From NCBI RefSeq assembly GCF_023699475.1, contig NZ_JALXFV010000002.1, forward strand, positions 1 through 64,000: 64,000 bases of DNA, in the 5' to 3' direction. Under the pieces are notes generated by a model. That model made no database searches. It saw only the letters and a list, made by a program, of their open reading frames with translations, and was not told the origin of the DNA. The position numbers and the translations under genes were made by a program. Origin of the DNA: Halomarina rubra. Its GTDB lineage: Archaea > Halobacteriota > Halobacteria > Halobacteriales > Haloarculaceae. Position 1 is the stretch's first letter, and the number at the start of each line of letters is the position of its first letter. This document shows positions 4,723 to 42,299 of the stretch, in pieces.

Positions 4723-5454
4723 TTAGGCAGACAGCAGATGGGCTTCGATGGTCTTCGCTTCGCTGAAGACGAGGCCGGTCACGTCTTCCTCGAATCGTTT
4801 CCCGGAGAGTGACCCAGAGGTTCCAATGACACACAGCGCAGCGACCGCACGGTCCTCAAGGTCGACAATTGGGGCCGCGATACAGCGGCTCGAAACACCG
4901 AGTGATGGTTCAGTTCCAAGCGCGTATCCCTGATCACGAATCTGGCGGAGGGCGCTCTTTTGCTCGGAGGTGATGTCGTCTGATTGGAGATCAGGGCGGT
5001 GAGCGAGTATCGCGCGCCCCGGAACGCTCGTCTGGAGTGGCAGCCGTTTACCCTCGGTGCCGCCTGCGTCGTAGCTTCCCTCATCGACACTGTAGAGGAC
5101 GACTGCTTCCTCTGCTTCTGCGACGACGAGGAACGCTCGCTCACCGGCATTCCCAGCAAGTGTTTCGACAGAAGAGCGTGCGACCGAGTACAGGTCAGAA
5201 CGACGGCGAGCGTCGAGTCCCAGATTGAGGAACCGAAGCCCGACATGATACGCATCGTCGCGGCGAACGAGATAGCCCAGCTGTTCCAGTGTCTTGAGGT
5301 GCTTGTGAACCGCCCCTTTCGAAAGGTCCAGCTGATCTGCTAACTCCGTCGTCCCCGCCCCATCCAGGTTGTGAACGGCCTCGACAACTCTAAAGGCTGT
5401 TACGACCCCCTGCACAGTGTATTGTCCGTCGTTGGCGTATCGTTCATCCCCCAT
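4723..5454 (-). CDS. IclR family transcriptional regulator
   Basis: A 243-residue IclR-type regulator. Residues about 13-70 form the winged helix-turn-helix (TTELADQLDLSKGAVHKHLKTLEQLGYLVR) written here only in part as a recognisable motif: SKGAVHKHLKTLEQ. Residues about 80-240 are the GAF-like effector domain. In Haloferax, the IclR protein XacR controls pentose breakdown, and IclR-type proteins commonly sit beside the sugar genes they control. This gene is the first of the glycan locus and lies about 230 bases from the GH127 gene on the same strand, so it is the best candidate for the locus regulator. Its ligand, and whether it activates or represses, cannot be read from the sequence. Confidence 0.9.
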   Translation of the reverse strand: MGDERYANDGQYTVQGVVTAFRVVEAVHNLDGAGTTELADQLDLSKGAVHKHLKTLEQLGYLVRRDDAYHVGLRFLNLGLDARRRSDLYSVARSSVETLAGNAGERAFLVVAEAEEAVVLYSVDEGSYDAGGTEGKRLPLQTSVPGRAILAHRPDLQSDDITSEQKSALRQIRDQGYALGTEPSLGVSSRCIAAPIVDLEDRAVAALCVIGTSGSLSGKRFEEDVTGLVFSEAKTIEAHLLSA

Positions 5455-5610
5455 GGTTTACCAGTAGCAAACGCCTCGTATGTAATAAATATTGTTCACC
5501 TATTGTGTGGTCGATAGTTCTTTTTCCCACATTCGAGTGTCATCGTGTCCTTACCTACGACCTAGTCGGTGGTGAGTCAGTCGTCCACGGCCAACACCGT
5601 GGGCGTTCAC

Positions 5611-5657
5611 ACAATTCACAGAATTGTAAGGGGGAAGCTCACGACTTCTGTCGTGGG
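5611..5657. repeat. Two adjacent hairpins, like an IS200/IS605 end
   Basis: Two inverted repeats lie in tandem between the IclR and GH127 genes. The first (5611-5627) has 7-bp arms ACAATTC/GAATTGT around 3 bases. The second (5638-5657) has 8-bp arms around TTCT, with one G-T pair, and closes with GTCGTGGG. The second hairpin is nearly the same as one at 52,146-52,165. Such hairpins mark ends of IS200/IS605 (TnpB-type) elements in haloarchaea, but no transposase or TnpB gene is present here. It may be a solo end or miniature derivative. Confidence 0.5.
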
Positions 5658-5688
5658 GTACTGCCCTCGATTTCATGTGCCATTGATT

Positions 5689-7656
5689 CTATGGGTCGAA
5701 TCGTGACGATGTAGCTTCGTGAAGCCACACCACCATCTCGCAGAATTCCCGGTTCGCCCACGAGTAGTACGGGATGGCCGTGACATCGACCGTCTCCTCG
5801 TGTGTCCCAGCGACCGGTTGGTATGGGTCGTCACTTTCGTTAGCAACCCGGACCGCTGCTGATCCCGTGAGGGCGATGACGCCACCGAGTAGGTCGGGTC
5901 GTTCGACAGCCTCAAACGTCGACTCCGTATCAACGCGAAGCTGTGAGGGTGGATACGGGTTGTCCACCGCTTCAATACAGTAGACGATTGGCCCCCGAGC
6001 GAGAGCGACACGCGCCGTATCAGCACGAATCGCTGGGTGAGCACCCAAAGTCCGGATGCCCATCGGTAGGTGCAGGTCGACGGTGTCGCCGTCGTGCCAC
6101 TGACGATCGATGTGTATGAACGCCTCGTCAGATGTGACGGGAACCGATTCAGCATCGACTGTGACGCGTGGATTTTCGCACCACCTGGGAATACGGAGAC
6201 AGAGCTCAAACATGGTCGGAGTATCCAGTGTGACCGTGAGGGAAACCGTACCGCCCCATGGATAGTCAGTCTCGACCGTGATATCGACGGGCTCACCATC
6301 GATTTCAGTTTTGAGCTGGCTTTCTGCGTACTGTGTCACGTACACCGTCCGCTCGGCCTGAGAGAAGAGATAACGAGGGAATTCCCCGAGGAGTCGAGCG
6401 ACATTTGGCGGACAGCACGCGATTCCTGGCCACGCCTCTCGGCGATACGACGGTGGCGAGTACGAGTGCCAGGCGTCCTCCGGGACCCGGGCGTGGGGAT
6501 GGTCGCCACCAGTACACGCGAGGTGATTGGGGTAGAAAAAGCGGTCACCAGAAAGCGAGAGAGATGCGAGAAAAGCGTTGTACAGAACCCGCTCGACAAC
6601 GTCCAAATACGTCGCCTCACGGGTGAGACGGAACATCGCCTGGCCCCAGCGGACCATGCCAACAGCGGCACACGACTCACAATATGACGTCTCGTTCGGC
6701 AGGTCGAAATCAGTCGTGAACCCCTCGTTATGATATGACGACCCGACACCACCGGTGAGGTACATCCGACGAGTCGTTGTGTTCGTCCAGAGGCGTTCGA
6801 GCGCCGCTGTGAGCGACTCATCGTTCGTTTCGCGGGCGACAGCGGCCGCCCCAGCAAACAGGTACATCGCCCGGACAGCGTGGCCTTCGGGCGTTGTCTG
6901 CTCGCGAAGCGGGCGGTGGTCCTGTCTGTGGCGACCGTCGTACGGCCCATCCGGGTGGACGTCCAGTTCGACCCCGATATCCTCGTGAGTCTCGACTTCC
7001 CAGGCCAGATACGATTTCTCGCGACCGCGCTCGTCGATGAAATACGACGCGAGGTCGAGGTACTCTGAGTCACCAGTCAGCTCGTACAGCCGCATGAGCG
7101 CGAGCTCGACCTCTGGATGACCTGGGTAGCCCTGGATACCATCTGGTCCGAACGTCTCGACGAGTAAATCTGCAAACTGGCAGGCGACATTCAGCAACCT
7201 CTCCTCGCCGGTTGCTGTGGCGTGTGCAACGGCCGCTTCGATGAGGTGACCGGCAACGTACAGTTCGTGGTCCTGCGTGAGGTTCGTCCACGGCTCGTCA
7301 TCGCCCAGGAGAATATCGGTGACGAGGTAGCCGCTATCGGACTGGGCGGCGACGAGCTGCGAGACGACCGTTTCTACTCGCGATTGTGGGGTTGTGTCCT
7401 CCATGCTGTTCAGCAGGTAACTCGAGGCTTCGAGCCACTTGTGGACCTTCGCGTCACCGCCCCCGTCGACGATTCCTACATCGGGATTACCCCCAAGGCG
7501 GCGGAAGGCATCGAACCGACCTGACGTCTCCAAGTGGTCTGCGACGTGGTCAAGAGTCGTCTCCCCCAATCGTCGTCGCCAGTCCATCCAGAACCCATCC
7601 CGGAGTTCGACGCTTGAGAGAGCAACTGGGGCCGGCGTCGACACACGGTCTCGCAT
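5689..7656 (-). CDS. GH127 glycoside hydrolase (beta-L-arabinofuranosidase-like)
   Basis: A 655-residue cytoplasmic protein of the GH127/DUF1680 family, which includes the zinc-dependent beta-L-arabinofuranosidase HypBA1. Visible family hallmarks are a CESCAAVG motif near residue 325, matching the Glu-x-Cys zinc ligands, and an ACCPPNVARLLG motif near residue 413, where the cysteine pair provides the nucleophile and a ligand in HypBA1. N-terminal alpha/alpha-barrel repeats (WLEASSYLL, YVAGHLIEAAVAH) are intact and length is normal. No signal peptide, so it should act on imported oligosaccharides. It lies 123 bases downstream of a GH51 gene on the same strand; a TATA-like AT box about 35 bases before the start suggests its own promoter. 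Substrate is inferred from family and neighbours. Confidence 0.88.
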   Translation of the reverse strand: MRDRVSTPAPVALSSVELRDGFWMDWRRRLGETTLDHVADHLETSGRFDAFRRLGGNPDVGIVDGGGDAKVHKWLEASSYLLNSMEDTTPQSRVETVVSQLVAAQSDSGYLVTDILLGDDEPWTNLTQDHELYVAGHLIEAAVAHATATGEERLLNVACQFADLLVETFGPDGIQGYPGHPEVELALMRLYELTGDSEYLDLASYFIDERGREKSYLAWEVETHEDIGVELDVHPDGPYDGRHRQDHRPLREQTTPEGHAVRAMYLFAGAAAVARETNDESLTAALERLWTNTTTRRMYLTGGVGSSYHNEGFTTDFDLPNETSYCESCAAVGMVRWGQAMFRLTREATYLDVVERVLYNAFLASLSLSGDRFFYPNHLACTGGDHPHARVPEDAWHSYSPPSYRREAWPGIACCPPNVARLLGEFPRYLFSQAERTVYVTQYAESQLKTEIDGEPVDITVETDYPWGGTVSLTVTLDTPTMFELCLRIPRWCENPRVTVDAESVPVTSDEAFIHIDRQWHDGDTVDLHLPMGIRTLGAHPAIRADTARVALARGPIVYCIEAVDNPYPPSQLRVDTESTFEAVERPDLLGGVIALTGSAAVRVANESDDPYQPVAGTHEETVDVTAIPYYSWANREFCEMVVWLHEATSSRFDP

Positions 7657-7779: not shown

Positions 7780-9945
7780 TCACTCGAGTTCGACGGTCAC
7801 GCGGGCCATCGAGTACGGTTCTAACTCAAGCGCCACCTCGCCGTCTGTGACCTCGATAGTGTGCGATTCGGGGGTGATTCGCGTTGGCTCCGCACGCGTG
7901 TTCGCATCGTGCATCGAGTCACCGGTGAGCGTCGTCACGCTCGCTTTGTTCGCCGTCTCGTGGCCGTCGACAGCGAGCGTGAGATCCATCGCTTCCGACC
8001 CACTCGTCCGGTTGACGAGCATCACGATGAGTTCAGATTCATCGGGGGTGAGCGTCGCCATGGCGTCGATGGCCGGCACGTCGACCGGTTCGATCTCTCG
8101 GAACGTCGTCTCGGTGGAGATGCTGTCGGATTCAACAGTGACTGCGACTGGTGTTCCCTCGGCCTGTGCGGTCCCTATCTGCCGACCGTAATGACACGGG
8201 TTCGCCCAGACACGCTCGCCTTGTTTCCACAGGCCGCCACCGTGGTTGACCGTCGCCGAGTGAGTGAGCATCTCGACGAACTCGCCGGTCCGAATGCACT
8301 CGTGGCGGACACAGGCGTTGTACAGCGCCTCGCTGATGGTCACGGGGGTTGGCATCGTCTCCGGAGTGAGCGTCGCATCTTCATCGCCGTAGTCGGCGGC
8401 GTCGTGGCGACCCTCTCGGCCCGCTTCTTCTGCCCCGCTCTGAAAGTGTGCGAACAGTTGGAGCTCTGTGATGTCGAGTTTCGGGTCAGACACCCCTGCC
8501 TCTTCCATCCGCCCGCGCAGGTCGCGGAACTCCTCGCCCAACTGGTCAGAGAAGCCCATGAACGCGTGATACAGTTCATCTGGGTCGGTCGTCGCATCAA
8601 CCTGCCCCCCTCCGAGGATGTGCTCGGAGATCGCCCGAACGTCGCTTCCCGCGCGTTCCAACAGCACGTCGTTCCAGTGGCCATCGCTGTTCGTCTCAAG
8701 CCCACATGCGGTCACCTCGATGGAGGGGTCAGTTTCCAACATCACTTCCCGGAATCGGAGGTACCGGTCGGCGTTTCCTGCGGGTGTTGTCCAGTTGACT
8801 TGCCACGGGCCATACAGCTCGTTCCCGATCTCCCAGTAGGTGATGTCGTACGGTTCGGGGTGGCCATGTTCAGCCCGTAGTGCGCCCATCTCGGTGTCGG
8901 TCGAGCCGTTACAGTACTCGACCCAGGCAGCCGCCTCCTCAGGCGTTCCGTCACCGGCGTTGACACAGATCGACGGTTCACAGCCAACGTGCTCACAGAA
9001 CTCGATGAACTCATCTGTCCCGAATAGGTTCGGTTCCAGTCCGCTCCATGCAGGGTTGATGCGTTCTGGCCGTTCATCAACCGGGCCAACGCCATCACGC
9101 CAGTCGTACCCAGAGACGAAGTTCCCACCCGGCCAACGAAGCAGTGGGAGGTCGGACTCGCTGAGCAACGAGACGACATCCGGGTCAGCATGGCCAACGT
9201 GGTCATCCGGATACAACAAGACACGTTCGACGACGAGATTCGTCGCCTCCTCTGTTAGGAGTGAGACCTCATACACACCGTCGGGGTCGATGTCTTCCCC
9301 CGAGAGGTCGAACGTCCCCTCGTGGGTTTTCCACTCTTGGCCAACGGAGAGCGTGGTCTCACCGAGGGCGTCGTCACCGGTCGGCCCGAGCGTGAGACGG
9401 ACCTGGGTCTCATCGGTCGCCCGAAGCTGGATTCGGAATTCATAGCCTCCAGTGCGATGGAGTGGGAGTCGCGTCTCCTGTCGAATCCCTGCCTCGCCAT
9501 CACCATCGAGTTCGATTCGCTGAGCGCGGTTTCCAGCCGGCCCCGTATCGGGGCTGAACGTGAGCCCCTCGCCTACGGGAAGCCAACCGAACGCCAGCGC
9601 GTTCTGGTAGGCGTCAAGCAGTGCCTCCGAGTCGGTCTCTTCGGGATACGCATACGGGCGGCCGTGATTCTCGACTTCCTCTCGAATCCGCTCGAAGTCG
9701 TTCTCACTAACGAACCCACCACTTTGACGGCGGTCACCGGCCCGGAAATGCCACTCACCGAGCGTCGGATTGAACAGGATTTCCGCGTCCATGCCCTGAT
9801 AGATGTTGTTCCCAAGATGCTCAGAGAACTTCCCGAACAGCATCGGTTCGACAGTGTGCGATGCACGGGATTCCGTATCGATGGAGACCCTCGCGGCCGA
9901 GGAGTCACCCGTCGGGGTGTGTGTGAAGAGGTCGCTATCGACCAT
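7780..9945 (-). CDS. GH51-type alpha-L-arabinofuranosidase, cytoplasmic
   Basis: A 721-residue GH51-type enzyme without a signal peptide. The N-terminal third holds a jelly-roll carbohydrate-binding-like insert; the TIM barrel follows with WPGGNFVSGYDWRDGVGP and the acid/base motif IGNELYG (Glu376). The likely nucleophile is Glu494 in LDITELQLF. A C-terminal beta domain ends the protein (EVALELEPYSMARVTVELE). The product should release terminal alpha-L-arabinofuranose from imported oligosaccharides. The segment CNGSTDTEMGALRAEHG is almost shared with the two other GH51 genes in this window, but the nucleophile context (TEL rather than GEWN) marks this as the most divergent of the three. The divergent GH2 gene lies about 240 bases away. 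Confidence 0.88.
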   Translation of the reverse strand: MVDSDLFTHTPTGDSSAARVSIDTESRASHTVEPMLFGKFSEHLGNNIYQGMDAEILFNPTLGEWHFRAGDRRQSGGFVSENDFERIREEVENHGRPYAYPEETDSEALLDAYQNALAFGWLPVGEGLTFSPDTGPAGNRAQRIELDGDGEAGIRQETRLPLHRTGGYEFRIQLRATDETQVRLTLGPTGDDALGETTLSVGQEWKTHEGTFDLSGEDIDPDGVYEVSLLTEEATNLVVERVLLYPDDHVGHADPDVVSLLSESDLPLLRWPGGNFVSGYDWRDGVGPVDERPERINPAWSGLEPNLFGTDEFIEFCEHVGCEPSICVNAGDGTPEEAAAWVEYCNGSTDTEMGALRAEHGHPEPYDITYWEIGNELYGPWQVNWTTPAGNADRYLRFREVMLETDPSIEVTACGLETNSDGHWNDVLLERAGSDVRAISEHILGGGQVDATTDPDELYHAFMGFSDQLGEEFRDLRGRMEEAGVSDPKLDITELQLFAHFQSGAEEAGREGRHDAADYGDEDATLTPETMPTPVTISEALYNACVRHECIRTGEFVEMLTHSATVNHGGGLWKQGERVWANPCHYGRQIGTAQAEGTPVAVTVESDSISTETTFREIEPVDVPAIDAMATLTPDESELIVMLVNRTSGSEAMDLTLAVDGHETANKASVTTLTGDSMHDANTRAEPTRITPESHTIEVTDGEVALELEPYSMARVTVELE

Positions 9946-10152: not shown

Positions 10153-10188
10153 CATCACTGTGGCAGTGTGCATGGAGTAGTTAGAGAG

Positions 10189-13100
10189 ATGACGGAAGAC
10201 CCAGCGGAGAAGACAGCTGAGAGTGTATCGAACGGGACGTCTGCAACGGCTGAATCAGATGATGAGCACGATGTCACTGAAACCACGCCTGTGCGACGCC
10301 GAACGGTATTGAAAGGACTCGCCGCCTCGGGTGGTGTGGGAGCGTTCGGTGCCGGTGCGCTCAGCGGTGAGGCGACGGCAGCCTCGACCACCCAGGAGTC
10401 CGATGGATGGTCGATGAAAGAACCCCAGATGTACACTCCCTGGACCGGGGACGTCGGGCCGGAGAACGCCCACCCCGAGTATCCACGGCCACAGATGGAG
10501 CGCAAACAGTGGCAAAATCTCAATGGCGTCTGGCAGTTCTCGGGCGCCTCAGAAGGGGAGGAACCTCCAATCGGCGAAGACCTCGATGAGTCGATCCTCG
10601 TTCCCTACCCGGTCGAGTCGGGGCTCTCGGGTGTCAAGCGCCACGAAACGTGGATGTGGTATCGCCGGGCCTTCTCGGTCCCGGATGAGTGGATAGTTCC
10701 AACGGCTCACTCGGACGAGGACGTGGAGAACAACCCCAACTCCCAGCGACTCCTGTTGCACTTCGAGCGAGTCGACTGGGAGGCGACCGTCTATGTTAAC
10801 GGTCAAAAGGTGACTTCCCACAAGGGTGGGTACGACCATTTCGTCGCAGACGTGACGGATGCGCTCACCTCGGAAGGCGACCAGGAACTCGTCGTCGGTG
10901 TCTTCGACCCGACGAGCGTCAATTCGAAACCTATCGGTACCCAACCGAAGGGTCGACAGGGTGAGGGAACCGGCTACAAAGGCGAGGGCACACTCGAGAT
11001 GACTCCCTCGTCGGGTATCTGGGATACCGTGTGGCTCGAACCCGTTCCCGATTCACACGTCACGAACCTGGATATGACGCCAGACCTGAGCGAAGACGTG
11101 CTTCGCCTCACGGTCGACGCGACCAACGAAGACGTGACGGCGGTGGCCACCGCCTATATCGACGACGAGAAGGTGGGTCGTGTCACCGGAGGGGTCGGCG
11201 AGGAACTCGAACTCCCCGTTCCCGACCCCCATCTCTGGTCGCCTGATGATCCCTTCCTGTATGACCTCAGAGTAGATCTCAGACGAGAGCAGGATGGAGA
11301 AGACGGTGGGAAGCTCCTCGACCGTGTCGAGAGCTACTTCGGAATGCGGTCGATTGGGAAGGAGTCCTATGGGAACACGGCACGGCCAACACTCAACGGC
11401 GAGACGCTCTGGCACCTCGGGACGCTCGAAAGCGGGCAGTGGCCAGACGGACTGTACACCGCGCCAACTGACGAGGCGCTTCGCTACAACCTCGAGGCGC
11501 AGAAAGAACTCGGGTACAATATGGTCCGGAAACACGTCAAGGTAGAACCGAGACGGTGGTTCTACCATGCCGACCAGTTGGGGCTACTCGTCTGGCAGGA
11601 CATGCCCAACATGCACGAGGGCTTCGACACGCCTCCCCGCGACGAGGCGACCCTCGAGCACTTCAAAAAAGAGCTAATCGAGATGGTCACCGAGCACGAT
11701 AACCACCCATCGATGGCGGTCTGGATACCGATCAACGAGGGGTGGGGGATTAACAACGACAACCTCGACTACCAGCGTGAGCTAACTGCGCTGGTTTCTG
11801 AACTTGACCCCGAACGCCTTGTTGACCCCCACAGTGGGTACGACGTCGGGTCGAACCACGACCCAGGTGTGGGCGACATCAAGGACGTCCATCAGTACGG
11901 AACCCCGTGGTACCAGATTCCCGAACCCGAACCCGACCGTATCTCTGCACTCGGTGAGTACACGTCGACGTCGCTGGTCGTCGAAGACCACCACTGGGGT
12001 GAGTGCGACAGTCCCTCCAGTGCCGAAGAGTTCGTCGCCCAGTACGTCGAACGGGTCGAGGCACTCGAGAAGTTCATGGTGAGCCGAAGCATGAGCGCAT
12101 CAGTGTATACGGCCACGACAGGCCTTGAAAACGTCTGCAACGGCATCATCACGTACGACCGCGAGGTGGTGAAACCAACACTCGCTGATGATGGCCTTCG
12201 TCGAGTCCGCGATGCCCACGCAAGTATCATCAAGGCGTCGCGTGACCTGATGGGTAATGTTCAATTCGACTTCGACGTTCCTTCGACATATGACGTCTCT
12301 GATGGCGCAGAGCCGTTTGAGGTGACCGCGACGCTGATGAACCCCGAAAGCGGGAGTGACGTTGCTGTTGAGGACGTCGACATGCGTTTGGGTGGCCTGC
12401 CAGACAGTTGGACGATTACCCCAACGACCGAGACGTCATTCGAGTCGGTCGGTGATGGCGAGTCCGTCTCCGCGACGTGGGAAATCACGCCAGATTCGAC
12501 TGCTGCTGGCGACATCGAACTCGACGGGACCATCGACTACGTCGTCAATGGTGAGCAATACCAGTACACCAATACGTGGGTGCTAAGCGCGGCTCGGCTC
12601 GTCTACTATCGCTATGAGAACTCGAATGCGGACAGTTCGAGCTACGACAACCCGTTCACGAATCACGGCGCGACATTCGACGACACAACGGCCGCTGAAG
12701 GCGACTACTCGCTGCAGTTCGATGGAACGGACGACTACATCCAACTCAACGACTTCGGGGAAGGCATCCTCCACGACGCGTTCACCGAGCGGACGTTCGA
12801 GACGTGGCTTGCCCCTGAGTCGACAAGTGGACTACAGGCGATCTACAGCGAAGGTGGCATCTACAACGGCATGGGCGTTCGCCTCAACGATGGCACGCTC
12901 CAAGCGAGCGTCGCCACCAATGGGCAGACAGTGACTGTCGACAGCGCGTTTGATGTGAGTGGTTGGACACACGTCGCTGCTGTCTTCGATAACGGCGCAC
13001 TCCGCCTGTTCATCGACGGCGAACAGGTTGCTGAGAATCCCGATGTGGGGTACTCGCGAGTCCCCGGTCACGTCGCAGCAACCGCCATCGGCGGCTCGGT

Positions 13101-14919: not shown

Positions 14920-15056
14920 ACAAGCGCGATTCCCCCCGGTACCAAGAAGTTTGTTGGTGGATAGCACGATTTGAGCACTTCGTGTGCCCTCGATAGTCGG
15001 TGACGCTGCTCGGCGGTACGTTCTTTGTGCTACTCACGGTGGCTTTCGTATCGCTC

Positions 15057-24264: not shown

Positions 24265-24431
24265 GCGCAGGGACGACTGGAACATAGAGCCACGTCGCCG
24301 AGGGGGGCCCGCATGTCATGCGAGATGTCGACACTCCCCGAAAGGACTAAACGAAAACGCGTCCCATCTGTGCTAACATCGCGACAGTTCGCCATTATGA
24401 AAGCTAGTACATATCATGGATGGGTGGGACG

Positions 24432-31114: not shown

Positions 31115-31199
31115 GCTTACGATGATTACGATTGGTTTGGTACCATCACCCAGCGGGTCCAAGACGTCACTTATCACCTTCCACTCGCAATCGATGGTC

Positions 31200-32441: not shown

Positions 32442-32464
32442 TCACCCCATCGTATCCGGCCGGG

Positions 32465-34027: not shown

Positions 34028-34136
34028 ACCTCCTCGCTCTCGGCGACATCTCATAAACGCCGCGGCGGAGTGTTGGTCGACGGAGACACCTTCCCCAACC
34101 TAAAGTTGCTTGTCGGTTCGCCCAAACTATCCCAGC

Positions 34137-34916
34137 ATGCGGACTGACCTATCAGGACGGACGGCGCTCGTGACGGGTGCCGGCCGTGGAAACGGTCGCG
34201 AAATCGCTCAGATGCTCGCCGAGAACGGAGCCAGCGTCGTCGTCAACGACCTCGATGAGGGGCCAGCCGAGGAGACTGTCGATGAGATTATGTCAGCAGG
34301 TGGCGACGCCGTCGCCGTTTCCGCGGACATCTCCGATGAGGCGGCTGTCCAGGCGATGGTCGAGACGGGGACCGACGCGCTCGGAACTATCGACCTCCTC
34401 GTGAACAACGCCGGTATCGGCCGGGGTGACCGATTCAAGAACAAGCCGGACGACACCTTCTGGAACCTCCAACTCGGCGTTCACCTCTGGGGGTCGATCT
34501 ACTGCACCAAACACGTCCTCGACGGGATGCTCGACCAAGGGTATGGAAAGGTTGTCAACGTCACCTCGATTCATACGAAAAACGGCGTCGGCATGTCCCC
34601 GCAATACGACGTGACGAAGTACTCGCTTGTCGGGCTGACGAAGACGCTCGCGCTCGAACTCGGACGTGACGGGATTCGCGTCAATGCCGTTGCCCCTGGG
34701 TGGACCGAGACACGAATGACTGCAGATTTCGACGCAGAGACACGCGAACAGATTCTGAATCTCAACCCGTTGGATCGGTTCGCGAGCTCAGAAGAGATTG
34801 CAGAGGCGGTCCACTTCCTTTGTGCGCCAGCGAGCGACTACGTCAACGGCCACGAGCTTCGAGTCGACGGCGGTCAACAGCCCATCGACAGCTGGAAACA
34901 CCGTTACGACGACTGA
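34137..34916 (+). CDS. SDR family oxidoreductase (sugar dehydrogenase candidate)
   Basis: A 259-residue classical short-chain dehydrogenase. The cofactor motif is TGAGRGNG near residue 13, NNAG near 90, and the catalytic Tyr157-x3-Lys161 is YDVTK. After the glycine motif, VVVNDLDEG with an aspartate at the end of the second strand favours NAD over NADP. Haloferax volcanii oxidises L-arabinose with an SDR enzyme, so this protein may oxidise arabinose or galactose to the lactone. A TATA-like box about 33 bases before the ATG at 34,137 supports that start. Confidence 0.85.
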   Translation: MRTDLSGRTALVTGAGRGNGREIAQMLAENGASVVVNDLDEGPAEETVDEIMSAGGDAVAVSADISDEAAVQAMVETGTDALGTIDLLVNNAGIGRGDRFKNKPDDTFWNLQLGVHLWGSIYCTKHVLDGMLDQGYGKVVNVTSIHTKNGVGMSPQYDVTKYSLVGLTKTLALELGRDGIRVNAVAPGWTETRMTADFDAETREQILNLNPLDRFASSEEIAEAVHFLCAPASDYVNGHELRVDGGQQPIDSWKHRYDD

Positions 34917-34978
34917 GATTCGATATCGAATTGGGTACGTCGACACCCCCAGTAGTGCCCTGGCGTAGTGTGTACTCG

Positions 34979-35446
34979 CTAACAGTCATCGGCCATTGCA
35001 ACCGTGGTCCGGCCGTCAAAGTTGAGGATGACGGATTGGGTCGTATCGCCAAAGACGGCTTTTCCTGTCGGTGATCGTCTGACCCCGGCGATGAACACGT
35101 GATCACAGTCTGCAGTCTCTGCCTCCTCGACGACGACCGTCCCCCGCCCCCGACCGTCGAGGACGACGCCGCGTGTCTCGTAGTCGACGTCGATATCGGT
35201 GAGTTCCTCGGTAGCGACGTTCCGGGCGATGGTCTGGGCGTGATCCTTGATAGAGTCGGCCTGGTAAGTCGTCCGTTCGCTCGACGCGATGGTGTCGAGA
35301 ATCTCTTGGTCGCGTTCGTATCCGTCTTTGCTGAGTGTCGCCAGCACGAGTAGGCTGGCATCGACCCCTGCGGCCAGTTCTCCAGCCTCTCGGACGAGGT
35401 CGTGACTTGCCTCTGATGAGTCGGCGACGACGAGTGCTCGCTGCAT
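34979..35446 (-). CDS. Universal stress protein (UspA) family
   Basis: A 155-residue single Usp domain. It shows the N-terminal strand MQRALVVADSSEAS, a central acidic helix region and the C-terminal GVRRSPTGKAVFGDTTQSVI, which fits the ATP-binding G-x2-G-x(9)-GS/T pattern of nucleotide-binding Usp proteins. Haloarchaea carry dozens of such proteins. It stands alone between two carbohydrate genes and its role in the locus is not evident. Confidence 0.88.
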   Translation of the reverse strand: MQRALVVADSSEASHDLVREAGELAAGVDASLLVLATLSKDGYERDQEILDTIASSERTTYQADSIKDHAQTIARNVATEELTDIDVDYETRGVVLDGRGRGTVVVEEAETADCDHVFIAGVRRSPTGKAVFGDTTQSVILNFDGRTTVAMADDC

Positions 35447-35546
35447 GGACTGGTCCCGACTGAATTGGGCGATGGTGATAAGCGTGTCTGTGATTGCCTC
35501 ACGAACGAATCGTATCAGCGTTTGATGCGATGGTTCGACCGACAGC

Positions 35547-37001
35547 TCACCACGGAGCTACTCGTTCGGGGTGTGGGTCGACCGTCTCGGCCATCCGGTC
35601 GCTGAGGGTTGTGAGGAGGTCCGTCTGCACGTCATTGTACGCGGGGTCGTTCCAGTGGTTGACCGTCTCATCGATGTCCGATGAGAGGTCGTACAGTTCG
35701 CCAGCCCGATTCGGGCCGTGGTGGCGGACTAGCTTGTACTGGTCTGTCCGGACCATCGTCGCCCGAACGTCGGAGGCCCAGTGGGTGAGGTCGTACGCTT
35801 CGGCGTAGACGGACTCCCGGTGGTCCTCAAATGACTCCTCACCGACGAGCGCCCCGTGGAGCGACCGCCCCTGCATTCGGTTCGGTGGGTCGATGCCAGC
35901 CGCCTCACAGAGCGTCGGCGCGAGGTCGACGAGTTCGACCAGTGTGTCGGTCTCAGCACTGACATACGTGTCGGGCCACGAGATGACGAGCGGGACGCGC
36001 AGCGCCTCCTCATAGAAGAACGGGCCCTTGAGGTAGATACCGTGGTCACCAAGTTGCTCACCGTGGTCGCTGGTGAACACAACGATGGTATCCTCACGCT
36101 GGCCGGTCCGCTCAAGTGCTGACAGCACCCGCTCAACCGCGTCATCGAGTAAATCACACATCGCCCAGTAGGCCGCACGCAGGAGGCGGTGGTCGTCGTC
36201 GTCCATCTCGCTTGCCGGCCACATCTCCTCGTTGGCGTACGCCCCCTCGTGACAGACGGCCTGGATTGCGGGTTTCTCGGTGAGTTCGCCCGGCTCGTAG
36301 TTCGGGAGCGGGATATCGTCCAGCCGGTCGAGATACCGGTCGAGGTACGCCGCTGGCGGGTCGAACGGGTGATGGGGGTCATACGGGTTGAGCGAGAACA
36401 GCCAGGGGTCGTCACCCTCCGCTGTCGCCTCGATGAAGTCGACTGCTTGGTCGGCACACCACATCGTCTGTGAGTGCTCGGGCGCGACAGAGGTTGTGAC
36501 GTACGCCGAGCTGTCGACTGGCGTTGGGTCGTACTCGACTCCCTCCGCTCGCAGCCACCGCCGGTACTCGTTCGTGAGGTGGACGTAACGACTCCCGTGC
36601 GCCCAGTTGAACTCCGCGTACCCGTCATCGATGCGTCGTTCAGGCATCGACCCCTCGGGACGGGTCGGACTACACGGCGAAAGGTGAAGTTTCCCTGCCA
36701 GTCCGCACGTGTACCCCGCGTCAGCGAACGACCGCGTGACTGGGGTTTCACGGTCGGGAATCGGGTGACCGTTCCCACGGACCCCCGTCGTTCGCGGATA
36801 CCGGCCCGTGAGGAAGCTCGCCCGACTCGGTGAGCAAACGGGTGACTGTGCGAACGCGCGGGTGAACTGCATCCCCGACTCGGCGAGTGAGTCAAGCGTT
36901 GGCGTCTCGACGAACTCGTTGCCATAACAGCCCAGCGTGTCCCATCGTTGTTGGTCAGTACACACCCAGAGGATGTTCGGTCGGTCTGTCACTGTCGACA
37001 C
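35547..37001 (-). CDS. Type I sulfatase, Cys-type
   Basis: A 484-residue sulfatase with the metal strand RPNILWVCTDQQRWDTLG and formylglycine signature CSPSR (Cys56), then SFLTGRYPRTTG. The second metal site is IVVFTSDHGEQLGDHG. No signal peptide. The start is a GTG; a second GTG nine bases further in lies about 8 bases after a GGAGG sequence and could be the true start (481 residues). The SDR and DgoD genes lie immediately upstream on the same strand, so dgoD, SDR and sulfatase probably form one operon that links desulfation with sugar oxidation. Confidence 0.9.
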   Translation of the reverse strand: MSTVTDRPNILWVCTDQQRWDTLGCYGNEFVETPTLDSLAESGMQFTRAFAQSPVCSPSRASFLTGRYPRTTGVRGNGHPIPDRETPVTRSFADAGYTCGLAGKLHLSPCSPTRPEGSMPERRIDDGYAEFNWAHGSRYVHLTNEYRRWLRAEGVEYDPTPVDSSAYVTTSVAPEHSQTMWCADQAVDFIEATAEGDDPWLFSLNPYDPHHPFDPPAAYLDRYLDRLDDIPLPNYEPGELTEKPAIQAVCHEGAYANEEMWPASEMDDDDHRLLRAAYWAMCDLLDDAVERVLSALERTGQREDTIVVFTSDHGEQLGDHGIYLKGPFFYEEALRVPLVISWPDTYVSAETDTLVELVDLAPTLCEAAGIDPPNRMQGRSLHGALVGEESFEDHRESVYAEAYDLTHWASDVRATMVRTDQYKLVRHHGPNRAGELYDLSSDIDETVNHWNDPAYNDVQTDLLTTLSDRMAETVDPHPERVAPW

Positions 37002-37037: not shown

Positions 37038-37892
37038 CTACTGCTCACGGTATGCAAGGTAGTCCTCGTCTTGCATCACGACACTTCGCCCGCCGTCGAC
37101 GACGAGATTTGCTCCCGTGATGAAAGCGGCATCGTCGCTGGCGAGAAATGCTGCTACGCCGGCAACGTCTGCAGGCGTGCCAATTCTCCCCGTTGGGTGC
37201 ATCGCCTCGATACGGTCACGGTCGACATCGGCCAACTCCTCGCGAGTGCGAGCAATCTCAACCCAGCCGGGGTTGATGGTGTTGACACGAATTCCGTGTG
37301 GGCTGAAGTCGAGCGCCATCGCCCGCGTCATGCCGTTGATGCCTGCCTTGACCGCATTGTACGGGAAGATACCGGGCATCGTCAGTAGGGCGTGATTCGA
37401 AGACATGTTGAGCACGCTTGCACCCTCCTGCATGTGTTCGACGGCGTGTTTCGCACAGAGCCAGAACGAGCGGAAATCTGTCTCGAGGACGAACGCCCAG
37501 TCATCCATCGTCGCGTCCTGTGCGGTGGTCTCGGTCTGGACACCAGCATTGTTTACCAGCACGTCGAGGCTTCCGTACTCCTCGACGGTGGCCGTGACAA
37601 GCGCCTCGATGTCATCGGGGTCGCGCATGTCCGCTCGGACGAACCGAGCGACCCCCCCTGCCTCTCGGATGTCGTCAACCACGGCCGCGCCTGGTTCCTC
37701 TGAGCGGCCCGTGACGACGACGTTTGCACCTTCGGCGGCGAATCGCTTTGCGACGCCTGCCCCGATTCCTCTCGTGCTCCCAGTGACAAGCACAGTCTTC
37801 TGGTCAAACCGGCCAGTGACGGCGTTTGCTGTCGGATCGGTCGTCCGCGGGGTCATGAGTCGGTCGGCATCGGTGGGTGTGTTATCCGGCAT
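37038..37892 (-). CDS. SDR family oxidoreductase
   Basis: A 284-residue classical SDR with an N-terminal extension of about 30 residues before the glycine motif TGSTRGIG. NNAG and the catalytic Tyr178-x3-Lys182 (YNAVK) are present. VVVTGRSEE after the glycine motif has no acidic residue at the strand end, which suggests NADP preference, unlike the SDR at 34,137. It begins two bases after the stop of the DgoD gene and probably shares its transcript. It is the likelier partner for the dehydratase, for example as the aldose 1-dehydrogenase, but a role in reducing or oxidising another intermediate is possible. Confidence 0.85.
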   Translation of the reverse strand: MPDNTPTDADRLMTPRTTDPTANAVTGRFDQKTVLVTGSTRGIGAGVAKRFAAEGANVVVTGRSEEPGAAVVDDIREAGGVARFVRADMRDPDDIEALVTATVEEYGSLDVLVNNAGVQTETTAQDATMDDWAFVLETDFRSFWLCAKHAVEHMQEGASVLNMSSNHALLTMPGIFPYNAVKAGINGMTRAMALDFSPHGIRVNTINPGWVEIARTREELADVDRDRIEAMHPTGRIGTPADVAGVAAFLASDDAAFITGANLVVDGGRSVVMQDEDYLAYREQ

Positions 37893-37894
37893 CC

Positions 37895-39049
37895 TCACCA
37901 CTCCGCGACGCTACCGTCATCGTGACGCCAGACGGGGTTGTGCCAGTCGACTTCGCGCTCTGCCTGCTCACGGATGTAATCGACGTTCATCTCGATACCT
38001 AGGCCGGGGTCGGTCGGGAGGTCGACGTATCCCTCCTCGTACGTGAACACGTTCGGGTCGGCGAGATAATCGAGCACGTCACCACCCTTGTTGTAGTGGA
38101 TGTTGAGGCTCTGTTCCTGGATAAGCGCGTTGTGCGAGCAGGCGTCGACCTGAACGCAAGCCGCCAGTGCAATGGGCCCAAGCGGACAGTGCGGGGCGAG
38201 TGCGACGTCGTACGCTTCGGCCATGCTGGCGATTTTTTTCACCTCCGTGATGCCGCCGGCGTGTGAGAGGTCCGGCTGGATGATGTCGACCGCACCATCG
38301 TTGAAGATCTGCTTGAAGTCCCAGCGGGAGAACATCCGCTCACCGGTCGCGATGGGAATCGAGGTGTGTGCGGCGATATCTGGCAGTGACTCGTTTTGCT
38401 CGGGTAACACTGGTTCTTCGATGAAGAATGGGTCGTACGGTTCGAGTGCACTCGCCAGGCGTTTGGCCATCGGTTTGGCGACCCGGCCGTGGAAGTCGAC
38501 GCCGATGTCGATTTCTGGTCCAACGGCCTTCCGGACCGACGCGATGCGGTCGGCCGCATCTGTGACACTCTGTGGTGTATCGACCGAGCGCATCTCGGAG
38601 GTCGCATTCATCTTCAGCGCGGTGAACCCCTCATCAACCTTTTCGCGGGCAGCCTCGCCGACCTCAGCGGGCCGGTCGCCCCCAATCCACTGATAGACAC
38701 GGACACGGTCTCGTGCTCGCCCGCCAAGCAGGTCGTACACCGGAGTTTCGAAGTGCTTGCCCTTCAGGTCCCACAGCGCCTGATCGATGCCGGCAATAGC
38801 ACTCATGAGAATCGGCCCACCGCGATAGAACCCGCCGCGGTACATCCGCTGCCAGTGGTCCTCGATATGGTGTGGGTCCTCGCCCAGCAGGTAGTTGTTC
38901 ATTAGCTCCTCGACGGCCGTCCGGACCGTCTTCGAGCGACCCTCGATGACTGGTTCACCCCAACCAACGAGACCATCGCTCGTCTCGACCCGGAGGAACA
39001 ACCAGCGTGGGGGGACCTCGAACAGTTCGTAGTCAACGATTTTCGACAT
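37895..39049 (-). CDS. dgoD: D-galactonate dehydratase family protein
   Basis: A 384-residue enolase-superfamily enzyme that follows Escherichia coli DgoD over its whole length, with shared blocks such as FYRGGPILMSAIAGIDQALW, GVDFHGRV, FIEEPVLPEQ, ATGERMFSRWDFK, QPDLSHAGGI, LAPHCPLGPIALAAC and NPVWRHDDGSVAEW. These supply the metal ligands (Asp and two Glu) and the catalytic histidines. DgoD converts D-galactonate to 2-keto-3-deoxy-galactonate. L-arabinonate has the same configuration at C2-C4, so arabinonate is also a possible substrate in this arabinose-rich setting. It leads a probable operon with an SDR and a sulfatase; a TTAATA box precedes it by about 35 bases. Confidence 0.9.
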   Translation of the reverse strand: MSKIVDYELFEVPPRWLFLRVETSDGLVGWGEPVIEGRSKTVRTAVEELMNNYLLGEDPHHIEDHWQRMYRGGFYRGGPILMSAIAGIDQALWDLKGKHFETPVYDLLGGRARDRVRVYQWIGGDRPAEVGEAAREKVDEGFTALKMNATSEMRSVDTPQSVTDAADRIASVRKAVGPEIDIGVDFHGRVAKPMAKRLASALEPYDPFFIEEPVLPEQNESLPDIAAHTSIPIATGERMFSRWDFKQIFNDGAVDIIQPDLSHAGGITEVKKIASMAEAYDVALAPHCPLGPIALAACVQVDACSHNALIQEQSLNIHYNKGGDVLDYLADPNVFTYEEGYVDLPTDPGLGIEMNVDYIREQAEREVDWHNPVWRHDDGSVAEW

Positions 39050-39166
39050 ATGCTACGAAGCACCAATCGACGGTGTGCTATTAACGCTTTGTGTCCAGCG
39101 TCAGTCGCTCGAACTGAACTGGCTTCTTGGGAACGGCTTATCACCCTCGCAGACGCGAGGCACGCT

Positions 39167-40087
39167 ATGACGACGGATCAGCCCGTTCCAACCCGCGTCG
39201 CAGATACACGCTGTGCGACCGGCGAAGGTCCACTGTGGCATCCCGATGAGGAATGTCTCTACTGGGTCGACATTCCTGCCGGTGACCTCTTTCGGTACGA
39301 CCCAGAGACAGACACCCATCGGCTCGTCGACCAGCGAGCGCCTATCGGAGGCGTCACCGTCGAGCAAGATGGCGCACTCGTGTTGTTCGGGGCCAAAGGG
39401 CGGGTCACCCGCTGGGTCGGCGGCGAGACGACGACGCTGATCGAATCGCTCCCTGAGGAGGGCGATAGCCGGTTCAACGATGTTTTTCCCGACCCACAGG
39501 GTCGAGTGTTCGCTGGGACGATGCCGACCAAAGCCCGCCTTGGTAGTCTGTACCGACTCAACGCGTCGACCACCTCTGCTCATACACCTGAGGTTCACCG
39601 GGTGGAGACTGGGTTGGCGATTCCGAATGGGATGGATCTCACCCCCGAGGGCACGGCGATGTACCTCACCGTCTCGGACGAACGGACGATCTACCGCTAC
39701 GCATACGATATATCGACAGGAGAACTGTCCGACTGCGAGACGTTCGTCGAGGTCCCCGAGGGGGAGGGCGTCCCTGACGGGTTGGCGGTGGATGTCGAGG
39801 GTGGGGTCTGGTCGGCGCGATGGAATGGCGGCTGTTTGATTCGGTATACCCCTGTGGGTCGGGAAGACCAACGAGTCGAACTTCCTGCCCAGAAGGTCTC
39901 CAGCGTCACGTTCGGCGGGCCATCGTACACGGACCTCTATATCACCACTGCCGGAGGCGATAATCGAGCAACCGAAGGCGACGGCGCAGGGGCCCTATTT
40001 CGGCTTGACGCACCGGTCGCGGGCCGGCCACCGTTTCGGTCTGCCTTGTCTCCGGGGGAGTCAGCAACCGGGTCGCCACAGAGTTAA
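39167..40087 (+). CDS. SMP-30/gluconolactonase family lactonase
   Basis: A 306-residue six-bladed beta-propeller. Family motifs include GEGPLWHPDEECLYWVDIP (first metal ligand Glu), a DSRFNDVFPDPQGRVFAGTM-like blade (Asn/Asp ligands) and IPNGMDLTPEGTAMYLTVSD. These enzymes hydrolyse sugar lactones such as glucono-, galactono- or arabinolactone. It is divergent from dgoD, which is expected to use its product, the aldonate. The ATG at 39,167 is chosen because similarity begins there and a TTAT box lies about 27 bases upstream; an upstream in-frame start would overlap the divergent promoter. Confidence 0.87.
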   Translation: MTTDQPVPTRVADTRCATGEGPLWHPDEECLYWVDIPAGDLFRYDPETDTHRLVDQRAPIGGVTVEQDGALVLFGAKGRVTRWVGGETTTLIESLPEEGDSRFNDVFPDPQGRVFAGTMPTKARLGSLYRLNASTTSAHTPEVHRVETGLAIPNGMDLTPEGTAMYLTVSDERTIYRYAYDISTGELSDCETFVEVPEGEGVPDGLAVDVEGGVWSARWNGGCLIRYTPVGREDQRVELPAQKVSSVTFGGPSYTDLYITTAGGDNRATEGDGAGALFRLDAPVAGRPPFRSALSPGESATGSPQS

Positions 40088-40114
40088 CTCGACTCGGCCA
40101 TAGCATCAGGCGAG

Positions 40115-41092
40115 ATGGCATCCGACCGTGAGGCCTGTTGTACCCCCGGACGTGACTGCGATGCCGAGTTACCACCCGATGACTCCTGCAGTACTGAGAC
40201 GGGCGAAGTGACAACCTCGACTGGGATGGTCAGACTATCCGGGGGGACGTTCACGATGGGCAGTGACGGAAATGAGGCCCATCCGGAGGACGGTGAGGGA
40301 CCACTCCGTGAGGTGACGGTCGCCCCGTTCCTTATCGACCGCTGTGCCGTGACGAACGCGGAGTTCTTCCGCTTCGTCGATGAAACAGGGTATACGACTG
40401 ACGCAGAGCGATACGGATGGTCGTTCGTCTTCAGGGGATTCGTCGACAACACCGAACCGGATTACGTCCTCGACACGGTCACTGAGACACCTTGGTGGGT
40501 GGCCGTTAAGGGAGCGACATGGCTTGCCCCCGAGGGGCCGGGATCGAATGTCCTCAGAGACCGACTTGACCACCCCGTCGTCCATGTCTCGCACAACGAC
40601 GCACGGGCGTATTGCTCATGGGCCGGGAAACGACTGCTCACAGAAGCGGAATGGGAGTATGCCGCTCGTGGTGGTCTCGTGGGAGCGCGTTTCCCTTGGG
40701 GTGAAGACCTCAAACCTGAGGGGGAACACCGCTGTAACATTTGGCAGGGGACGTTTCCAGAGGAGAACACGGCTGCAGACGGCTATCGCGGTACCGCTCC
40801 TGTCGACGCGTACTCACCGAATGGCTACGGACTCTCGAACACAATAGGGAACGTCTGGGAGTGGTGTGCGGACTGGTTCAGCCCGACTTACCATAGGACA
40901 CCTGCGGCAGACCAGATGAACCCAACCGGGCCACCGGATGGGACGGCTCGTGTGATGCGTGGTGGGTCGTATCTCTGTCACGACTCGTACTGTAATCGCT
41001 ATCGAGTCGCAGCCCGCTCGCAGAACACGGCCGACAGCTCGACGGGCAATCTCGGCTTTCGCTGTGCGCGTGACGTCAACTCGGCCGACTGA
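40115..41092 (+). CDS. Formylglycine-generating enzyme (sulfatase activator)
   Basis: A 325-residue FGE-sulfatase-fold protein that looks fully active. The C-terminal block GGSYLCHDSYCNRYRVAARS contains both copper-binding catalytic cysteines, Cys288 and Cys293, spaced as in human SUMF1 (Cys336/Cys341). The family core begins near residue 38 (MVRLSGGTFTMGSD) and includes NVWEWCADW. It oxidises the CxPxR cysteine of sulfatases to formylglycine using oxygen. It has no signal peptide, matching the five cytoplasmic Cys-type sulfatases of this locus. The N-terminal 36 residues hold four cysteines, including CTPGR at Cys9-Arg13, which itself fits CxPxR. It starts 27 bases after the lactonase gene and is probably co-transcribed. 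Confidence 0.93.
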   Translation: MASDREACCTPGRDCDAELPPDDSCSTETGEVTTSTGMVRLSGGTFTMGSDGNEAHPEDGEGPLREVTVAPFLIDRCAVTNAEFFRFVDETGYTTDAERYGWSFVFRGFVDNTEPDYVLDTVTETPWWVAVKGATWLAPEGPGSNVLRDRLDHPVVHVSHNDARAYCSWAGKRLLTEAEWEYAARGGLVGARFPWGEDLKPEGEHRCNIWQGTFPEENTAADGYRGTAPVDAYSPNGYGLSNTIGNVWEWCADWFSPTYHRTPAADQMNPTGPPDGTARVMRGGSYLCHDSYCNRYRVAARSQNTADSSTGNLGFRCARDVNSAD

Positions 41093-41219
41093 CGGCACTA
41101 CTGACGACAACGTGGCTGTTGGAGTGTCGGAGCAACCTCACGTCGCGCTCACGATCTTGGATGACTCTCGCTTGGATGACCCCCGATAGCTACAGTGGCG
41201 CAGGTCATTCGGTCGAACC

Positions 41220-42299
41220 ATGCATCGACATGACCGTCTCGACGCGTATCTCGACGCGAATGACCTTGCCGCAGTCTGGTTCGGCCAGCCGAACAACTTC
41301 ACTTGGCTAACCGGCGGGAGCAACGTTGTCAGCCGGGCAAACTCGGTCGGCATCGGCGCAGCTGGATATGATGGTGATTCCGTCACGGTCGTGACCAACA
41401 ACATCGAGGCCCAGCGACTCCGCGATGAGGAAATAGACGACGACGTCACCATTGAGACGTTCGACTGGCATGCCTCATCGCTATCAGCCGCTGTCGCGGG
41501 GGTCTCTCCACAGCCTGCGGCAGCTGACTTCGATGTGCAGGGATTCGAGTCGGTCGACGCCTCCCCACTTCGACAGCCCCTCACACCGAATGATATCGAG
41601 ACCTATCGATCGCTCGGAAAGGACACAGCGGCTGCTGTGGAGTCTGTCGTTCGAGAACTCACACCGTCGACGACAGAACACGAAGCGGCCACTGAGCTTC
41701 GATATGTCCTTGAGCAACAGGGTTGTCGCGTGCCAGTCGCGCTCGTTGGCGGTGAGGACCGCGCTCAAGCGTATCGCCACTTTACACCATCGACGACGCC
41801 TGTCGATGGATACGCTATTGCATCGGTGACGGCGGTGCGTGATGGTATGGCTATAAGCATGACTCGGACCGTGGCGTTTGACCCTCCGTCGTGGCTTGGC
41901 GAACGCCACGCTGCGGCAGCTCAGGTTGAGGTGAGTGCGTTGGCGGCGACGCAATCGAACGGACGTGCAGGAGGGGCGGCAGGTGACGTGTTTGAGGCGA
42001 TTCAGGACGCCTATGCTGCCGTCGGTTTCGAGGAGGAGTGGCGACATCATCACCAAGGTGGTGCCGCAGGGTTCGCGGGTCGCGAATGGATTGCCTCACC
42101 ACACCACGTCGCACCAGTCACTCTCCCGATGGGATACGCGTACAACCCGACAGTCCAAGGAGCGAAAAGCGAGGGGACCGCGCTTGTCACAGCAGACACA
42201 GTCGAACCACTCACCCCTTCTCAGGAATGGCCGATTCAGTCGGTGACGAGCGTCAACGATGCGTTGACGCTTGAACGGCCAGCAATTCTCTACCAATAA
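41220..42299 (+). CDS. M24-like (aminopeptidase P/creatinase fold) protein
   Basis: A 359-residue two-domain protein of the M24 fold. The N-terminal creatinase-like domain runs to about residue 125 and the pita-bread domain follows (NDIETYRSLGKDTAAAVESV). Of the five metal ligands in true M24 peptidases, the histidine (in HHHQGGAAGFAGREW) and one glutamate (AKSEGTALVT) can be placed, but the two aspartates are absent: the regions read AIASVTAVRDG and ISMTRTV. It is therefore probably not a metallopeptidase and may be a metal-free enzyme, as creatinase is, or a binding protein. It ends the plus-strand run of the glycan locus. Its substrate is unknown. Confidence 0.7.
   Translation: MHRHDRLDAYLDANDLAAVWFGQPNNFTWLTGGSNVVSRANSVGIGAAGYDGDSVTVVTNNIEAQRLRDEEIDDDVTIETFDWHASSLSAAVAGVSPQPAAADFDVQGFESVDASPLRQPLTPNDIETYRSLGKDTAAAVESVVRELTPSTTEHEAATELRYVLEQQGCRVPVALVGGEDRAQAYRHFTPSTTPVDGYAIASVTAVRDGMAISMTRTVAFDPPSWLGERHAAAAQVEVSALAATQSNGRAGGAAGDVFEAIQDAYAAVGFEEEWRHHHQGGAAGFAGREWIASPHHVAPVTLPMGYAYNPTVQGAKSEGTALVTADTVEPLTPSQEWPIQSVTSVNDALTLERPAILYQ

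Follow-up and report, generated by a model that had tools for sequence, protein, structure and literature searches.

Which glycan does a haloarchaeon break down with a gene cluster that combines arabinofuranosidase-type glycosidases and five sulfatases? The cluster in question lies at positions 4723-42299 of the window analysed here, which spans the initial 64 kb of contig C9 in the 4.07-Mb genome of Halomarina rubra. The original prediction was a polysaccharide utilization locus (PUL) for a sulfated arabinose/galactose glycan. We found that this outline holds, as the gene module recurs in other haloarchaea, while a type-II arabinogalactan with a galactopyranose (Galp) backbone is a poor match, as the GH2 enzyme belongs to group III and the locus contains no pyranosidase. 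The locus is likely a haloarchaeal PUL for a heavily sulfated glycan with furanoside units: alpha-L-arabinofuranose (Araf), probably beta-D-galactofuranose (Galf) and, through an accessory GH127 enzyme, beta-L-Araf.

Gene content of the locus

The main open reading frames (ORFs) were translated and scanned with Pfam and NCBIfam profiles, which verified every named catalytic gene of the locus and bore out the claim that the whole set lies within about 38 kb. The locus encodes glycoside hydrolases (GH) of families GH127, GH51 (three copies, GH51a to GH51c) and GH2 (secreted), five Cys-type S1 sulfatases (A to E) and a canonical aerobic formylglycine-generating enzyme (FGE), together with a complete Opp-type transporter, an IclR regulator, two short-chain dehydrogenases/reductases (SDR1 and SDR2), an SMP-30 lactonase and a true DgoD. 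Five of the 12 Sulfatase matches of the genome fall inside the locus, within 24 kb (binomial P = 5e-9, or about 9e-7 when crudely corrected to allow for any position). Thus, the clustering of sulfatases is not due to chance. Carbohydrate-active enzymes, an importer and a regulator are clustered, and the clustering is kept in other haloarchaea; the locus is therefore a PUL in the functional sense, and we infer that it serves one single glycan. The SusC/SusD pair of a PUL in the Bacteroidota sense was not found among the scanned locus genes, which include an Opp-type ATP-binding cassette (ABC) importer instead.

Related sulfated loci in haloarchaea

We searched 394 haloarchaeal genomes (given by our own handles, such as G381) with the FGE, GH51a, GH51c and GH127 proteins, and additionally the genomes named below. 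At least five other haloarchaea, drawn from several families, carry related sulfatase loci: G381, G161, Halobacteriales YIM A00010, Saliphagus infecundisoli and Candidatus Halobonum tyrrellensis G22. The locus of G381 (C2:102-139 kb) holds GH51c, two GH2 genes (59 and 63%), sulfatases E, D and B, the Opp transporter, GH51a, DgoD (76%), SDR2, SDR1 and FGE, and that of G161 (C1:2.894-2.950 Mb) holds three GH51a genes, GH2, Opp, DgoD (76%), SDR1, FGE and homologs of all five sulfatases; the other three genomes have parts of the module, seen in stretches truncated at 12-22 kb. The genes kept together in several haloarchaea, in differing orders, are those for GH51a, Opp, GH2, sulfatases B, D and E, SDR1, DgoD and FGE. 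GH127, SMP-30 and the lectin-like gene lie outside this shared core, so that two genes central to the earlier reasoning, GH127 and the lactonase, proved not to be conserved in other sulfated loci.

Of the genes that mark the sulfated loci, GH51a is conserved best (62-69%), and its eight sequences from these loci form one clade, supported at 99 by the Shimodaira-Hasegawa-like approximate likelihood ratio test. Among the sampled genomes, all four that have this clade carry a close FGE, versus one of the 13 that have the other GH51a clade (P = 0.002, or 0.007 without the source genome, both by Fisher's test and uncorrected for kinship among genomes). Two variants of the locus were also observed. 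In G159, which belongs to the same genus as the source, only FGE, DgoD, SDR1, sulfatase D and an interrupted SDR2 (split across two frames at C3:22446-23196) are kept, and the region may be what is left of a decaying locus. In G161, a gene for a Gfo6-type D-xylose 1-dehydrogenase (C1:2900996-2902105; 402 bits, cut-off 350) lies near GH51a and GH2 and suggests pentose oxidation in that version.

The sulfated loci differ from arabinan-type loci of haloarchaea, which we examined in full in G145 (55 kb) and G181 (60 kb) and in part in Haloarcula mannanilytica, Halosimplex and Natrialba. The arabinan-type loci and the H. rubra locus have GH51, GH127, the Opp transporter, IclR and an M24-like protein in common. 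However, no sulfatase match was found in the G145 and G181 loci; the dehydratases of G145, G181 and Halosimplex (L140) score 195-285 bits, under the DgoD cut-off of 311; and arabinan-type GH51a sequences fall on other branches of the tree than the sulfated clade. The solute-binding proteins of sulfated loci are 38-43% identical to that of H. rubra, versus 22-24% in arabinan-type loci, whereas ATPases and permeases are similar in both. The H. rubra locus appears to consist of a shared sulfated core (GH51a, GH2, sulfatases, FGE, SDR1, SDR2, DgoD and Opp) to which arabinan-type genes (GH127, GH51b, M24 and SMP-30) may have been added.

Glycosidases

The GH2 gene (10168-13221, plus strand) encodes a group III (GH2_18-like) protein, predicted to be secreted by twin-arginine translocation (Tat), with NPCBM-associated and LamG domains and with both catalytic glutamates intact (predicted acid/base E524, nucleophile E597). 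Its best PDB match is a beta-D-galactofuranosidase, 9j6n (454 bits, 1.1e-134), followed by 7sf2 (381 bits), 7xyr (220 bits) and ordinary glucuronidases (at most 90 bits), which places it nearer to group III structures than to those of groups I and II. The known activities of group III are only alpha-L-arabinofuranosidase and beta-D-galactofuranosidase, the group has a conserved Trp-to-Thr change, and members of GH2_18 are mostly secreted (PMC12243196). By eye, the locus GH2 has the furanosidase-type Thr in place of the stacking Trp (VYT, in VYTATT), and the equivalent Thr is found in the same column in the GH2 homologs of G381 (two copies) and YIM A00010. An ordinary beta-galactosidase was rejected as a reading of this gene because the protein groups with the GH2 furanosidases of group III. 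Given this placement, every glycosidase of the locus comes from a furanosidase group, and the galactose is more likely furanosidic; it would best be read as galactofuranose. There is precedent in a Streptomyces strain for both families, as its GH51 acts on Araf and Galf at a ratio of 1.8:1 and its GH2 is Galf-specific (PMC4560423).

The three GH51 proteins match the Pfam profile ASD1_dom weakly (28-34 bits) and the NCBIfam profile ArfA strongly (8e-67 to 3e-48), and one of them aligns to GH51 structures in the PDB at 1e-43. All three have the acid/base Glu in the NE motif and the nucleophile Glu. GH51a (7780-9945, minus strand; E376 and E494, respectively) has TELQ in place of the EWN surroundings and is predicted to be cytoplasmic, as is GH51c (20588-22798, plus strand), whose ortholog in the sulfated locus of G381 is 58-60% identical; GH51b (16647-19181, plus strand; catalytic NE at 425-426, E602) has a Tat signal (RRTFMKG). 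The active-site residues of GH51a fail to tell the enzymes of sulfated loci from those of the arabinan type. GH127 (5689-7656, minus strand) is beta-L-arabinofuranosidase-like (Pfam 3.9e-90; best PDB match 4qjy, 2.6e-149), has no signal peptide and keeps the Glu/Cys site (E-T-S-Y-C-E-S-C at 322, A-C-C at 413-415).

The start of the gene for the lectin-like protein (19178-20500, plus strand; Tat signal RRSVLLGG) overlaps the GH51b stop. Three H-lectin-like repeats are present (H_lectin 7.6e-5), but at 23.2 bits the match stays just below the PF09458 cut-off of 24, and assignment as an H-type lectin is borderline. A single-sequence AlphaFold model (predicted local distance difference test 31.6) was unusable as fold evidence.

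Sulfatases, export signals and predicted import

The modification motif C-x-P-x-R is intact in all five sulfatases, which have the Sulfatase fold and the type I motif for formylglycine. Sulfatase A (13336-14967, minus strand; likely start about 14919; CCPTR) may be S1_4-like, and its best PDB matches are 7ALL (6e-126, full length) and 1hdh; 7ALL is the structure of BT4683, an endo-acting S1_4 enzyme that desulfates 3-sulfated galactose (PMC10154612, PMC10154620). Sulfatase B (15000-16487, plus strand; likely start about 15057; CAPSR), identified by the Sulfatase profile, has orthologs at 58-71% in G381, G161, YIM A00010, Saliphagus and Halobonum, and sulfatase C (22795-24264, plus strand; CAPAR) has one at 51% in the G161 locus; neither has a signal peptide. 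Sulfatase D (32465-34054, minus strand; likely start about 34027; CLPSR) lacks the usual LTG after the motif and has counterparts at 71% in G381 and G159, and sulfatase E (35547-37001, minus strand; CSPSR) at 59-66% in G381, G161, YIM A00010 and Saliphagus. The FGE (40115-41092, plus strand; PF03781 4e-82) carries the catalytic Cys pair of aerobic enzymes, C-x-x-x-x-C within LCHDSYC at 287, and has orthologs at 61-70% in 24 of 393 other haloarchaeal genomes.

Tat-type signals were recognized by eye in the GH2 protein (RRRTVLKG), GH51b, the lectin-like protein and the solute-binding protein (RRRLLASG...LAGC). In contrast, GH51a, GH51c, GH127 and the five sulfatases begin at the catalytic domain after correction of the over-long starts in sulfatases A, B and D, and the FGE has no signal peptide. 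This pattern suggests that sulfated oligosaccharides are imported and that desulfation takes place in the cytoplasm. A matching order, import and then desulfation, has been proposed for chondroitin use by haloarchaea (PMC13260240), and in Bacteroides plebeius sulfate was shown to be removed after transport (PMC8406133). The importer comprises two Opp/Dpp-type ATPases (24420-25460 and 25457-26569, both plus strand; 69-72% and 67-71% to those of other sulfated loci), permeases C (27022-28002) and B (27999-29045), both on the minus strand and identified by profile match, and an SBP_bac_5 solute-binding lipoprotein with Tat signal and lipobox (29216-31084, minus strand), the ORF of which extends upstream to 31363.

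Predicted sugar oxidation

DgoD (37895-39049, minus strand) scores 670 bits against the NCBIfam equivalog cut-off of 311, which marks it as a true galactonate dehydratase of the De Ley-Doudoroff type, and is 73-76% identical to its homologs in G381, G161 and G159. It is paired with SDR2 (37038-37901, minus strand), a candidate aldose 1-dehydrogenase whose start overlaps the DgoD stop. SDR1 (34110-34916, plus strand; 64-76% in G381, G161, G159 and YIM A00010) is specific to sulfated loci and is merely 33% identical to the other DgoD-linked SDR of the genome; for both SDRs, the PDB matches are too distant to give the substrate. The SMP-30/gluconolactonase-type aldonolactonase (39050-40087, plus strand; 9.7e-68) probably starts downstream of 39050. 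The genes of the predicted aldose-oxidation set are thus all present, and the set can be specified as a galactonate-type dehydratase with its paired SDR, the lactonase not being conserved in the other sulfated loci.

The pair is duplicated in the same genome, where a second DgoD (78%) and an SDR2 paralog (68%) lie at C14:144.7-146.7 kb; around them (C14:141293-146700, L104) we observed a frame-interrupted M24 paralog and glyoxalase-family and FAH-family genes. One KDPG-type aldolase is encoded on contig C14 and two DHDPS-family genes lie elsewhere in the genome, and the steps after DgoD probably come from the core genome. L-arabinose and D-galactose share the C2-C4 configuration, as do L-arabinonate and D-galactonate, so the same enzymes could serve both arabinose and galactose.

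Proposed pathway, source of the glycan and alternatives

Gene content, catalytic residues, export signals and recurrence of the module are evidenced by the sequence; from these we infer what the substrate is, in which order the steps run and that the galactose is galactofuranose. Outside the cell, the Tat-exported GH2 and GH51b enzymes, with the lectin-like protein, would trim the glycan, and the Tat lipoprotein and Opp-type permease would take up oligosaccharides that are still sulfated. In the cytoplasm, the five FGE-activated sulfatases, which lack signal peptides, would remove the sulfate, after which GH51a, GH51c and GH127 would release the sugars. SDR2, alone or together with SDR1 and the lactonase, would then oxidise galactose (or arabinose) to the aldonate, and DgoD would dehydrate this to a 2-keto-3-deoxy acid on the way to pyruvate.

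Green algae are the likeliest natural source of such a glycan. Cladophora falklandica makes a sulfated xylogalactoarabinan that contains 3-sulfated arabinose and beta-D-Galf side chains, with arabinose as pyranose (PMC5694217), and the hydroxyproline-linked glycans of Chlamydomonas contain a beta-L-Araf disaccharide with Galf; a galactopyranose mutase gene is predicted in the brine alga Dunaliella salina (PMC7773692 for both). Cladophora and Chlamydomonas-type glycans would each fit the locus in part: the units of the latter match GH127 and GH2, and sulfation is not documented for them in PMC7773692. Type-II arabinogalactan with a Galp backbone was rejected as a poor match, as the locus has no pyranosidase and its GH2 is of the furanosidase type.

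Several points weigh against the proposed substrate and pathway. The locus has no endo-acting backbone enzyme or pyranosidase, which leaves breakdown of an arabinopyranose backbone, as in Cladophora, unaccounted for; group III of GH2 also holds alpha-L-arabinofuranosidases, and sequence does not separate Galf from Araf for this protein; the PDB matches of sulfatases B to E are too distant to give their substrates; the cytoplasmic site of the sulfatases would follow from an absence of signal peptides judged by eye; the locus carries no gene for the steps after DgoD; and DgoD could act on L-arabinonate. We hold only tentatively, at somewhat less than even likelihood, the more specific claim of a dedicated archaeal system for sulfated Galf glycans, in which the group III GH2 and GH51 would act on Galf, five cytoplasmic sulfatases would follow import, SDR and DgoD would oxidise galactose, and the glycan would be linked to green algae (Cladophora, Dunaliella).

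A narrowed version of the original prediction, in which the furanosides are arabinose only (a sulfated arabinan or arabinogalactan), GH2 is an alpha-L-arabinofuranosidase and DgoD acts on L-arabinonate or on galactose derived from galactopyranose, is plausible but rather doubtful. It would suit GH51 and GH127, chiefly arabinofuranosidase families, the genes shared with arabinan-type loci (Opp, GH51, GH127, IclR and M24), the alpha-L-arabinofuranosidases of GH2 group III and the configuration common to the two sugars. It accords less well with a GH2 nearest to a Galf-specific enzyme, a sulfatase A nearest to a galactose sulfatase, a true DgoD in sulfated loci versus another dehydratase in arabinan-type loci, and the lack of a galactopyranosidase in the locus. 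The position of the locus as one unit is itself open to challenge if two systems merely adjoin, the left-hand genes (IclR, GH127, GH51a to GH51c) forming an arabinan set and the right-hand ones an unrelated sulfatase/aldonate set. Gene orientations are indeed mixed, in other genomes GH127 and M24 are part of arabinan-type loci, and in G370, G358 and G185 FGE occurs with sulfatases B or D and no GH51 nearby; however, the core from GH51a and GH2 to DgoD and FGE stays together in several haloarchaea and its GH51a forms a clade of its own, which makes two separate systems very unlikely.

Haloarchaea are themselves abundant biomass in brines, and the locus might scavenge from neighbours a sulfated surface glycan or glycolipid (S-layer N-glycan, exopolysaccharide or sulfoglycolipid). 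This is unlikely, as the locus has GH51 and GH127 and arabinose is, to our knowledge, not a usual sugar of haloarchaeal glycans. Archaeal lipids do contain sulfated galactose and galactofuranose (PMC11767167), but the UDP-galactopyranose mutase (GLF) domain was found in none of 294 haloarchaeal genomes, with control bacteria positive, in a search that a non-homologous mutase would escape; scavenging of such glycans was set aside on this ground. Galf reported in archaeal lipids, alongside the missing GLF domain, makes a non-homologous mutase possible. A sulfated, furanose-containing glycan, most likely algal, remains our preferred substrate.

Other genes in and beside the locus

The IclR-family regulator (4723-5454, minus strand; IclR_C 3e-12, HTH_IclR 2e-9) has counterparts within or adjoining related loci. 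A shared IclR operator was rejected, since the candidate is merely an 8-mer, TTATCACC, at three places, and does not recur in the matching upstream regions of relatives. Three further genes were absent from the original list: a HEAT-repeat-like acidic protein (about 31194-32441, plus strand; translation by eye) between the genes for the solute-binding protein and sulfatase D, a UspA-like protein (34979-35446, minus strand; by eye), probably unrelated, between SDR1 and sulfatase E, and an M24-fold protein (41220-42299, plus strand) identified by its family profile. The ORFs 31621-32517 (plus strand) and 34843-35502 (minus strand) of the mechanical list were discarded as spurious, as other frames are coding there.

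By eye, four of the five peptidase metal ligands (D, D, H, E, E) appear to be replaced in the M24-fold protein and in its relatives too, so that by this measure it does not look like an M24 metallopeptidase. Relatives (G381 C2:62255-63373; L135:12353-13450; L168:17642-18706; G145 C4:16081-17151; G181 C3:85832-86896) recur beside GH51, GH127 or DgoD genes in haloarchaea, including arabinan-type loci, and a creatinase-like or non-peptidase role in arabinose/aldonate metabolism is possible.

Upstream of the locus, an Archaea-specific SMC-related protein (ASRP; 1807-4552, minus strand) adjoins RdfA; G145 has a similar pair next to its arabinan-type locus, and the G161 region includes an ASRP homolog. 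Downstream (43509-48600) are a GAF/PAS histidine kinase and then response-regulator-like and 2Fe-2S ferredoxin-like ORFs.

Comparison with known systems

Every family in the locus is already known; the module is recurrent and distinct from arabinan loci, and it is predicted to point to furanosidic galactose. Haloarchaea have been recognized as polysaccharide degraders only recently, and the only published haloarchaeal system for sulfated glycans that we found is a 2026 report on glycosaminoglycans (PMC13260240). The present locus points to a second large substrate class, sulfated furanose-rich glycans, for several haloarchaeal families. It offers concrete enzymes for salt-active assays (five sulfatases, a predicted galactofuranosidase and a divergent GH51 clade) and makes the consumption of algal blooms in brines by haloarchaea testable.

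No description of such a locus was found in the open-access literature; the nearest known loci are the glycosaminoglycan loci, the arabinan-type loci and the PULs of B. plebeius. The glycosaminoglycan loci (Natronoarchaeum and Haloarcula H-hyl strains) likewise form a PUL-like island that combines a sulfatase and glycosidases with an ABC importer for oligosaccharides, and desulfation is proposed to act on disaccharides (PMC13260240). However, they degrade uronic acid glycans by means of PL8 lyase, GH88 and GH154, all of which are missing from the Pfam matches of the H. rubra locus genes, whereas the present locus has five sulfatases, an FGE and furanosidases only. PUL13 and PUL5 of B. plebeius, for sulfated arabinogalactan proteins (PMC8406133), resemble it in that a sulfatase is needed to open the glycan and desulfation follows uptake; they differ in using SusC/D uptake and GH43_24, GH145 and GH105 against a galactopyranose backbone, with no GH51 or GH127 mentioned.

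Haloarchaeal DgoD-family proteins have been assigned to the De Ley-Doudoroff galactose pathway (PMC3102087), with which the locus shares the DgoD family and the oxidation of free sugar followed by dehydration; here, in contrast, DgoD is paired with an SDR in a sulfatase/furanosidase locus, and kinase and aldolase are not local. The closest solved relative of the GH2 protein, the beta-D-galactofuranosidase of Streptomyces sp. JHA19 (GH2_18, PDB 9J6M/9J6N), has the catalytic NE and E and the Thr in common with it, but is a single secreted enzyme with an AbfB domain, whereas the locus GH2 carries NPCBM-associated and LamG domains and is encoded inside a sulfatase locus.

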